DNA of 64,000 nt from Armatimonadota bacterium (GTDB lineage Bacteria; Armatimonadota; Fimbriimonadia; Fimbriimonadales; Fimbriimonadaceae). Under the pieces are notes generated by a model. The model saw only the letters and a program-made list of their open reading frames with translations. It ran no database searches and was not told where the DNA came from. The translations under genes were made by a program, and so were the position numbers. Location of the stretch: the NCBI GenBank assembly GCA_018268395.1, contig JAFDWQ010000002.1:1-64000 (forward strand), written 5' to 3'. Of the stretch, positions 10,271-15,513 are shown one piece after another. The first letter of the stretch is position 1, and each line of letters begins with the position of its first letter.

Positions 10271-10299
10271 GGCCCCCGCCCCGTTCTGGGGCGAGGGCC
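10271..10299 (-). terminator. Rho-independent terminator after the histone-like gene
   Basis: Arms GGCCC and GCCCC pair with GGGGC and GGGCC around a 5-nt loop, with a 2-nt internal mismatch; on the minus strand the hairpin is followed by TTTCTC. It lies 22 nt past the stop codon. Confidence 0.7.
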
Positions 10300-10320: not shown

Positions 10321-11529
10321 TTAGGCGGCGGCCTTCGGCGAGTTGTTGTAGGAGATGGGCTTGCAGAAGCTGCCCTTCTTGCCGTTGCTGTTGATCCAGC
10401 AGGCGCGGTACTGGACCTTGCCGTTGCCGGAGTAGTTGTGGACGAACGGGAAGTTCGCGCCCTGCGTGAGCTTCTTCCAGCTGTTGCTGCCGTTCTTGAC
10501 CTCGACGTAGGCGGCCTTAGTGCCGCTCGGGAGCGAGAACGTGCCGTTCTTGCTGCTGCCGACGTAGACGTTCACGCCGCTCTTGGAGCCGGTGAACCAC
10601 ACGAACGGGGCCGCGGTCTTGACGTTAGACGTCGTCGACTTCGCGACCTTGGACGTCGAGCGGGCCGAAACGCGCTTCGTCGTCTTAGAGACGGCCTTGA
10701 TCGCCTTCACGGCTTTGGAAGCCGGTTTGACGACGGCCTTCTTGACCGGGGTCGACGACTTGCTCGTGGCGACGGCCTTCTTGGCGACGGTCTTCTTGAC
10801 GGTCGTCGCTTTGCGGGCGGTCGTGCGCTTCGCAGTCGTCTTGCCCTTGGCGACGATCGGTTTGGCCGTGTTGACCACCGGGGTCGACTTGATGACGGCC
10901 TTCTTGATCGCCGGCTTCTTGGCCGTGACCTTCTTGACCGTCGTTTTCTTCATGACCGGCTTGACCGTGGCGGCCGACTTGATGACGGTCTTCGCCCTCG
11001 GAGTGCTTCGGACGGCCGTCTTGGCCGGTGCCTTCTTGGTCGTGGCCTTCTTGGCCGCGATCTTCTTCGTGGCGACCTTCTTGGTCGCAGTCTTCGTCGT
11101 CTTCACGGCTTTGGCCGTGGTCTTCGGTGCTTTCTTCGCGGTGGACGTCTTCTTCGCGACCGTGGTGGTGGTCGTGCCGCCGAACCAGTTCGACCAGTTG
11201 CCGTCGAAATTCTTGTTGGCCGAGATCATGGAGACCATGTTCTGCATGTAGGCCTGATAGGTCGCGAACGCGGTCGTCTGGAACGACTTGTTCCAGGTGC
11301 CGTAAGCCTTGTAGCTAGCCTGCCAGTTCTTGTACCACTGGTTGACGAACTTGATGTCGCTGGCTTTGTAGCCATATTTCTTCGCGTTGGTGTTGAACGC
11401 TTTGTTGAAGTGCGTGAAGCACGTGTGGAAAGCGCTCCAGTTTTTCGGAAGGTTGTACGTTGCCAAGTTTCCTCTTTCCTCTGCCGTCAGGCGTCGTGGA
11501 GCCAGGTTGCACCTAGCTCGGACCGTCAT
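10321..11529 (-). CDS. Histone H1-like Lys/Thr/Ala-rich protein with two aromatic end domains
   Basis: Up to 402 residues in three parts. Seen: an N-terminal domain (about 24-117) rich in Trp, Tyr, Phe and Asn (NLPKNWSAFHTCFTHFNKAF, GNWSNWFGG); a low-complexity linker (about 119-306) made of repeats such as TKKVATKKIAAKK and VKKVTAKKPAIKK, strongly basic with almost no acidic residues; and a beta-like C-terminal domain (about 307-395: FVWFTGSKSGVNVYVGSS, VQYRACWINSNGKKGSF). Known: AKKA/TKKA tails bind DNA in bacterial H1-like proteins and HU variants. I infer nucleic-acid or polyanion binding. TTG 11466, preceded by AGAGG, is an alternative start; the first 21 residues are Arg-rich and differ in style. 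A strong terminator follows. Confidence 0.85.
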   Translation of the reverse strand: MTVRARCNLAPRRLTAEERGNLATYNLPKNWSAFHTCFTHFNKAFNTNAKKYGYKASDIKFVNQWYKNWQASYKAYGTWNKSFQTTAFATYQAYMQNMVSMISANKNFDGNWSNWFGGTTTTTVAKKTSTAKKAPKTTAKAVKTTKTATKKVATKKIAAKKATTKKAPAKTAVRSTPRAKTVIKSAATVKPVMKKTTVKKVTAKKPAIKKAVIKSTPVVNTAKPIVAKGKTTAKRTTARKATTVKKTVAKKAVATSKSSTPVKKAVVKPASKAVKAIKAVSKTTKRVSARSTSKVAKSTTSNVKTAAPFVWFTGSKSGVNVYVGSSKNGTFSLPSGTKAAYVEVKNGSNSWKKLTQGANFPFVHNYSGNGKVQYRACWINSNGKKGSFCKPISYNNSPKAAA

Positions 11530-11619
11530 TGGTGCATGGTCGGTAATCTTTTCGGGGAACTTTAGGTTTGGGTCCTAGAAACGGCCTCGCCCAGGTTCAA
11601 ACTAGACGTAGGGACAACG

Positions 11620-12504
11620 ATGCTCGCATTCCTTTTGGCGCAGGCGCCCGTCCAGACGACAGGGCCCGACATCGCCTATATCGCACGCTATTACACGCCC
11701 GAAAACAGCAAGGCCAAGAGCCGTTCCGCGGTGTACGTCTGCGACTGGACCGGCAAACGGACGCGGAAAGTCGCGACGCCAGAAAAGGACGTCTACGCCG
11801 TCGTCTGGGCGGGCTCCGGCCGCCTCGTGTGGTTCTGCGACGGCAAGACGGGGCCCGACGAAGTCTGGACGGCGACGCCCCAAGGGGCCGACGCCCGCCA
11901 GATCGGGACCGTCTCCAATCCCGAGCCGTGGCACAGCCACCCCGGAACGCCGTACTTCCAAGACGCCTCGGGGGTGGAACCCGTGTGGTACACGGTCACT
12001 CCGGAGGGGGCCCTCACGAAGACGACGACTCCGGTCTCGCCTTTTGCCGCCATCAGTCACGACCTTTCGTCGAAGGACGGCAAGTGGAGCCTACGGATCA
12101 ACGACGACGACGAGGGGAAACTCGTCCTGTTCGACAGTCAGGGTGCTGCGAAGGACCTGGCCCACCAAGGAATGTTCTACGACGCGAAAGTCGAACCGGC
12201 CCGAGACCGGGTCTGGATCCGGACGCGCGACCACGACAGCACGACAGGCACGCACTTTTGGCTCTACACCGTCGACTGGGCAGGACGGCGGCTCGTGCCC
12301 CGGATCGAGGACTACGCCATGGCCGACTTTTGGCCGTCCCGTGACGAGACGGTGTACATGCTTCCCCGTTCCCTCGGCAAACTTGGGAAGAAGACGCAGG
12401 TCTGGGTCAGTCCGATGTTCGCGGGAAACGTCCGGACCGGACAGTTCAGGAAAATCGTTTCGGGCACGGTCTGGGTGCAGTGGGTCGCCCTGCAGCCTCG
12501 CTGA
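11620..12504 (+). CDS. TolB-like propeller-type protein, possibly exported
   Basis: A 294-residue protein. Seen: a short hydrophobic N-terminus (MLAFLLAQAP) that could act as a minimal signal, then repeated beta blades with motifs such as SAVYVCDWTGKRTRKVATP, VVWAGSGRLVWFCDG and DFWPSRDETVYML, which resemble WD40-like/TolB blades. No catalytic residues stand out. It is likely a scaffold or binding protein; partner unknown. The tail faces carA across 6 nt. Confidence 0.72.
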   Translation: MLAFLLAQAPVQTTGPDIAYIARYYTPENSKAKSRSAVYVCDWTGKRTRKVATPEKDVYAVVWAGSGRLVWFCDGKTGPDEVWTATPQGADARQIGTVSNPEPWHSHPGTPYFQDASGVEPVWYTVTPEGALTKTTTPVSPFAAISHDLSSKDGKWSLRINDDDEGKLVLFDSQGAAKDLAHQGMFYDAKVEPARDRVWIRTRDHDSTTGTHFWLYTVDWAGRRLVPRIEDYAMADFWPSRDETVYMLPRSLGKLGKKTQVWVSPMFAGNVRTGQFRKIVSGTVWVQWVALQPR

Positions 12505-14367: not shown

Positions 14368-15513
14368 ATGTCTGACCGCGTGTACGTCTTCGACACGACC
14401 CTTCGCGACGGCGAGCAAAGCCCTGGCGTCCGGCTCTCGATGCCCGAGAAGCTCGAGATCGGGCACGCTCTGGTCGAACTCGGCGTCGACATTATCGAAG
14501 CCGGCTTCCCCATCAGTTCGCCCGGCGATTTCGAAGCGGTGAACATGCTCGCCCGTGAACTGCGAGGGGTCCAGGTCTGCGGCCTCACGCGAGCCCGTGA
14601 GAAAGACATCGACGTCGCTGGGGAAGCGCTCAAACCTGCCGAAGACCCGCGGATCCATACAGGCCTCGGAGTGAGTCAGAACCACCTTCAGCACAAGCTG
14701 AAGATGACGGCCGACCAGGCCCTTGAAACGGGGGTCAACGCCGTCAAGCACGCGCGCAAGTACACCGACAACATCGAGTACTTCATGGAGGATTCAGGCC
14801 GGGCCGACCGCGAATACGTGTACCGCGTCGTCGAGTCGGTCATCGCCGCGGGTGCGACGACGATCAACGTCCCGGACACCACGGGATACACCTATCCCGA
14901 GGAGTACCGTGCGCTCATGGCGGGCATCCGCAACAACGTGCCCAACATCGATAAGGCCGTTCTGAGCTGCCATTGCCACAACGACCTCGGCATGGCGACG
15001 GCCAATACCCTAGGCGGCGTCCTTGGTGGCGCGAGACAGGTCGAAGTCACGGTCAACGGGATCGGCGAGCGGGCCGGCAACACCGCGCTCGAAGAAGTCG
15101 TCATGAGCTTCCGGATCCGCCAAGACCTGTTTCAAGTCGACACTAAGGTGGACTCGACGAAGCTCCTGGCCGTCAGCAAGCTCGTCTCCAGACTGACCGG
15201 AATGATGGTCCAGCGGAACAAGGCCGTCGTGGGGGCGAACGCCTATGCCCACAGTTCCGGCATCCACCAGGACGGAGTCCTGAAAGAACGGTCGACCTAC
15301 GAGATCATTGCGCCCGAACTCGTCGGCGCCGAGAAGAGCGAAATCATCCTGACCGCCCGGTCGGGCCGCCACGGGTTGAGGCACCGCTTGGCCGAAATGG
15401 GGTTCAGCTTCAACGAGGACCGTTTCGAAGACCTTTACAACCGGTTCTTGGAGGTCGCGGACACGAAGACGGAGGTCGGTGAAGAGGATTTGCGCGAACT
15501 CGTCTCAGCCTGA
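14368..15513 (+). CDS. leuA: 2-isopropylmalate synthase, catalytic part only
   Basis: 381 residues. Condenses acetyl-CoA and 2-oxoisovalerate, the first step of leucine synthesis. Seen: the DRE-TIM metallolyase signature TTLRDGEQSPGV, GFPISSPGDFEAV, and the metal-ligand motif SCHCHNDLGMATANT, then NGIGERAGNTALEEV and HSSGIHQDG, which sit in the conserved linker/subdomain. Typical LeuA is about 500-560 residues with a C-terminal leucine-binding regulatory domain; that domain is absent and the frame closes cleanly. Homocitrate synthases of similar length are an alternative. HQDGVLKE and the overall LeuA-like sequence favour isopropylmalate synthase. Confidence 0.85.
   Translation: MSDRVYVFDTTLRDGEQSPGVRLSMPEKLEIGHALVELGVDIIEAGFPISSPGDFEAVNMLARELRGVQVCGLTRAREKDIDVAGEALKPAEDPRIHTGLGVSQNHLQHKLKMTADQALETGVNAVKHARKYTDNIEYFMEDSGRADREYVYRVVESVIAAGATTINVPDTTGYTYPEEYRALMAGIRNNVPNIDKAVLSCHCHNDLGMATANTLGGVLGGARQVEVTVNGIGERAGNTALEEVVMSFRIRQDLFQVDTKVDSTKLLAVSKLVSRLTGMMVQRNKAVVGANAYAHSSGIHQDGVLKERSTYEIIAPELVGAEKSEIILTARSGRHGLRHRLAEMGFSFNEDRFEDLYNRFLEVADTKTEVGEEDLRELVSA

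Follow-up and report, generated by a model that had tools for sequence, protein, structure and literature searches.

A putative histone H1-like architectural protein of Fimbriimonadaceae and its proposed stepwise origin from a neutral two-domain family

The Lys-rich tails of the Pseudomonas proteins AlgP and PhaF bind DNA (PMC9239181, PMC13052382). AlgP carries its Lys-rich stretch at the C terminus, as a tail of KPAA-type repeats (PMC9239181), and the protein, which is H1-like, is located on polyphosphate granules and spaces them (PMC13052382). H1-like Lys/Ala-rich stretches arose in several bacterial lineages, and their beginnings are rarely visible. For Armatimonadota, no papers on H1-like proteins or nucleoid proteins were found.

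The window (the whole stretch of DNA analysed, 64,000 nucleotides) carries on its minus strand a gene for a strongly basic protein in which an H1-like stretch lies between two folded domains. Since the comparable tails of AlgP and PhaF bind DNA, a DNA-binding role is proposed by analogy: with a probability of about one half, the protein would be an H1-like architectural protein of the cytoplasm that binds nucleic acid, its folded ends serving to bridge DNA or to engage a partner. The features of the gene and of its product are as follows.

10271 to 10299, minus strand: intrinsic-terminator-like hairpin 3' of the gene, 12 pairs, 11 of them G-C (hairpin in the sequence)
10321 to 11466, minus strand: coding sequence of the basic two-domain protein, 381 amino acids, probable TTG start (open reading frame; start context conserved in relatives; stop at 10321-10323)
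10324 to 10332, minus strand: C-terminal Ala-Ala-Ala (last residue Ala in 32 of 37 family members, Ala-Ala end in 27 of 37)
10324 to 10623, minus strand: C-terminal domain, residues 282-381, predicted FnIII-type beta sandwich (pLDDT; VIA-align)
10624 to 11175, minus strand: H1-like linker, residues 98-281, Lys/Thr/Ala/Val without Asp or Glu, predicted disordered (composition; pLDDT; sub-threshold HC2 match)
11176 to 11466, minus strand: N-terminal domain, residues 1-97, predicted three-helix bundle with helices at 10-27, 35-54 and 60-83 (AlphaFold2, 36 sequences)
11467 to 11482, minus strand: Shine-Dalgarno-like stretch agaggaaagaggaaac directly 5' of the TTG (sequence; purine-rich stretch at the same position in 13 TTG-start relatives)

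The original prediction gave the gene as an open reading frame at 10321-11529. This minus-strand frame was confirmed as real in the ORF listing, but the ATG at 11529 is unlikely to be the start codon of the basic protein. Translation most likely starts at the TTG at 11466 (11464-11466), immediately 3' of AGAGGAAAGAGGAAAC, since the TTG context is kept in close relatives and the upstream ATG is not. The full protein has 381 residues, in three parts (1-97, 98-281 and 282-381), with a mass of 41.1 kDa, a pI of 10.7 and a net charge of about +75. GC content by codon position (GC3 0.90) favours the minus strand as coding, and a plus-strand frame at 10438-11565 (375 amino acids) was rejected as a gene, being an antisense shadow of the Lys-rich minus-strand gene. 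GC-rich hairpins soon after the stop were seen by eye, unscored, in most relatives.

The gene stands alone, flanked on one side by a 2-oxoacid dehydrogenase E2 gene and on the other by a divergent gene at 11620. The latter adjoins the basic gene within the genus only, and an operon or partner gene was rejected because neighbours in common were not found beyond the genus. Among the two-fold codons the fraction of strong codons is 0.90, the highest found, with the other genes compared at 0.68-0.88 (a range that excludes one reading with a mis-set start). This bias is compatible with good expression, yet is partly due to the Lys/Asn/Phe content. High codon bias fits an abundant protein, and Lys-rich disordered extensions are common among RNA-binding proteins, which would suit a protein whose basic stretch acts on RNA or the ribosome while its ends act on partner proteins. 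However, no ribosomal genes are adjacent, a known RNA-binding domain is absent and FnIII is untypical of RNA binding, and this reading is quite improbable.

The linker agrees closely with the long, basic, nearly acid-free Lys/Thr/Ala/Val stretch that had been described at first. It is about 184 residues long, or 181 when counted between the domains, and those 181 residues comprise 27% K, 20% T, 19% A and 13% V, with 55 K/R, no D/E and no aromatics. Given a D+E content of 11.9% in neighbouring genes, the chance of finding no acidic residue in 181 is about 1e-10. The other long-linker relatives tallied have 0-1 acidic residues per linker over 65-176 residues of dissimilar sequence, such that linker composition is conserved across genera and linker sequence is not. 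The pLDDT of the linker is about 40-50 in the model, which is in line with disorder. Its only library matches are both sub-threshold: HC2 (PF07382) at 32.2 bits against a gathering threshold of 40, with the match confined to the linker, and NF038053 (H1-like, Burkholderia type) at 14.5 bits against a curated cut-off of 80. These matches reflect composition, not family membership.

The two ends are aromatic and Asn-rich as had been proposed, and the C domain is also Gly-rich. The N domain, counted as 99 residues, contains 23 aromatics and 13 Asn, with 10 K/R to 2 D/E; the C domain, counted as 101 residues, contains 14 aromatics, 12 Asn and 11 Gly, with 13 K/R to 1 D/E. In profile searches, which the original prediction had called for, neither end domain matched any Pfam, NCBIfam or PHROGs family, and the paralogues tested gave no match either; a PDB sequence search returned weak, chance-level matches only. 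Modelled alone (AlphaFold2, 36 relatives), the N domain reached a mean pLDDT of 83.6 and a pTM of 0.73. A known fold for it was not supported, as it had no Foldseek match under E 3.5 when searched alone, and the best match on a second look, 3a98_C (Z 8.5, 76 residues), was rejected as a relative because it lies under the meaningful level for helical bundles. The C domain has a pLDDT of about 75-93 over strands that are predicted to span residues 288-374. It aligns with many fibronectin type III (FnIII) domains in VIA-align (Z about 10-11 over 85-91 residues; top Z 11.0, 90 residues, rmsd 2.5 A), and a seven-strand FnIII fold is predicted. In Foldseek the predicted model reached a best E of just 1.6e-3, and a search with the C domain by itself brought no Pfam fn3 match up to E 1. 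The invariant residues of both domains are retained, which argues that the ends are functional parts. The Ala-Ala C terminus conserved in the family may be a proteolysis signal. The same ending resembles that of the ssrA tag of the window's genome, ANNNFAYAA.

In the proposed mechanism, the disordered Lys/Thr/Ala linker would bind nucleic acid non-specifically, assisted by the two basic folded ends. The linker would lie along DNA and neutralise its charge, while the ends, up to about 180 residues apart, could contact another DNA segment or a partner protein and thereby cause bridging or compaction. Polycations also bind RNA, polyphosphate and acidic polysaccharide, which counts against reading the partner as DNA; that the polyanion is DNA, that it is bridged and that the role lies in the nucleoid are three points that we infer. 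A related proposal is a tether of the AlgP/PhaF kind, in which one of the folded ends would grip an intracellular body such as a granule while the linker attaches to the nucleoid (or to polyphosphate). The two-ended layout suits such a tether, as does the precedent of AlgP on polyphosphate granules (PMC13052382), but the basic protein has no phasin or AlgP domain match. PHA synthase (PF07167) was not found in the window's genome or 60 relatives (61 genomes), which makes PHA granules unlikely and led to rejection of a PHA-granule tether. A granule tether, which may involve polyphosphate, is the leading alternative to the architectural reading, although an improbable one.

The original prediction of a three-part H1-like protein holds for the anatomy and the linker, and has to be amended as to the ends, which are those of a neutral two-domain family between which the linker appears to have been inserted late. 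A paralogue in the same genome (contig 3, 39798-40445) has both end domains joined by a 12-residue Pro-containing linker. When profiles of the basic and neutral groups were compared with hhalign, they aligned at 99% probability (E 3.1e-18) over 203 columns spanning both domains in the same order. On these alignments, the basic protein is assigned to the neutral two-domain family (helical N domain and FnIII-like C domain), of which it is the derived, single-copy, basic branch. The family is bimodal in charge, with neutral members at -10 to +9 and the basic branch at +22 to +75; the protein described here, at +75 and with about 184 linker residues, stands far from the near-neutral charge and linkers of about 12 residues of the former.

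The neutral paralogues are scattered single genes that begin directly with the N domain. With a wider profile, about a dozen neutral copies were found over many contigs of the window's genome, up to at least 12 per genome in several relatives, and full-length members turned up in several further families of the phylum; the neutral family may be present in other phyla too. Of 113 genomes of the order, 14 carry the basic branch, each as a single gene; they belong to two families, and the relatives that have names are Armatimonadota, including Fimbriimonadaceae. A TTG start at the same position was found in 13 of 14 basic-branch relatives versus 0 of 23 neutral members (Fisher P 4e-9, which counts related genes as independent; 2 of the 23 neutral start coordinates, L062 and L063, are not on a start codon). 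Conserved across genera in the basic branch, the TTG perhaps sets a low initiation rate. A phage origin was rejected, with no matches in phages, plasmids or viral contigs (three profiles for viral contigs). Two smaller proteins were also noted. One locus (L050/L096; G048:C259:10384-10785) encodes a basic N domain that ends in a short Ser/Arg/Lys tail; its open frame lacks an FnIII domain, and by its sequence it is classed as a one-domain variant of the basic branch. In the window's genome, a short minus-strand frame on contig 10 (L115, around 15388-15405) ends in a Lys/Ala-rich tail (KKTAAKKSVKKAAKKPVKKKR) and is perhaps a second small H1-like protein.

The neutral family also bears on whether the protein could be a surface or matrix protein that leaves the cell by non-classical export, its polycation retaining DNA or acidic polysaccharide outside the cell. 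Most bacterial FnIII domains occur in exported proteins, and FnIII-only matches to the family profile in the phylum lie in long open reading frames. However, matrix-protein ends with a signal peptide, the finding that would have told against the original prediction, were not seen. Hydropathy gave neither a signal peptide nor a membrane helix in the basic protein, and the neutral paralogues likewise start straight at the N domain. A surface location is thus very improbable, and the cytoplasmic architectural reading is retained.

In a tree of linker-stripped proteins all basic proteins form one branch. Deepest in it is L034, with a net charge of +22 and without a long linker, followed by L017 (net +39) and L018 (net +33) with linkers of about 20 residues, then by L016 with a linker of 22, and then by all long linkers, at 64-184 residues, the longest of which occur in the window's genus. 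Bootstrap values are 92-100 for the main splits and 40-73 for some nodes inside the long-linker group. The tree is midpoint-rooted, and the direction of the shift in charge and of linker growth depends on the rooting; the neutral form is taken as ancestral since it is far more widespread. Read in this direction, the sequences indicate that the end domains became basic first, that linker growth (from about 20 to 64-184 residues) came later, and that the H1-like stretch was inserted late between the two end domains. The proposed course is duplication of a neutral two-domain protein, after which the end domains would have turned basic and the linker expanded. Living relatives would thus display the steps from a neutral protein through basic ends and a short basic linker to a long H1-like linker.

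Imperfect, weak tandem repeats of 15 and 30 bp in the linker DNA offer a route by which the linker could have grown. Together with a linker length that varies widely among species, they could also be taken to mean that the linker is a functionless low-complexity stretch produced by replication slippage. Most linkers, however, have no acidic residue despite differing sequence, and both end domains gained positive charge before and with the linker. A linker devoid of function is accordingly highly improbable, and a nucleic-acid-binding linker is preferred.

The role of such a protein is linked to the packing of the chromosome in this order. The window's genome, which is 99.8% complete, gave no HU/IHF (PF00216) match, and the basic protein itself does not match that family. 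Of the 61 genomes of the order searched (the window's genome and 60 relatives), 58 gave no PF00216 match, while the same search was positive in 9 of 14 control genomes and, within the phylum, in many genomes from other families. HMf-type (archaeal-type) histones (PF00808) were not found in the window's genome either. The basic protein as a general HU substitute was rejected because the basic branch is too rare, with 14 of 113 genomes carrying it in an order where HU is lacking nearly everywhere. It is a concrete, testable candidate chromosome organiser in the species that have it. That it is a lineage-specific chromatin protein, which arose from a neutral FnIII-bearing protein as both folded ends turned basic and an H1-like linker then grew between them, and which bridges or compacts DNA in an order that lost HU, is a tentative extension of the architectural reading and on present evidence unlikely.

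The closest likeness is to the neutral paralogues, which share with the basic protein the same end domains in the same order and the Ala-Ala C terminus, and differ from it in their Pro-rich linker of about 12 residues, a charge near zero, an ATG start and many copies per genome. The Lys/Ala/Thr composition of HC2 and NF038053 proteins is that of the linker, but those proteins lack the two end domains. The C domain has a fold in common with FnIII domains, but it has no signal peptide and forms part of a protein that also contains a helical domain and a polycationic linker. AlgP and PhaF resemble the basic protein in joining a helical domain to an H1-like stretch that is long, disordered and rich in Lys, although domain homology to either was not found. 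In those two proteins this stretch forms the C-terminal tail and is made of KPAA repeats, whereas in the basic protein it is internal, rich in KT and KA, and followed by an FnIII domain.
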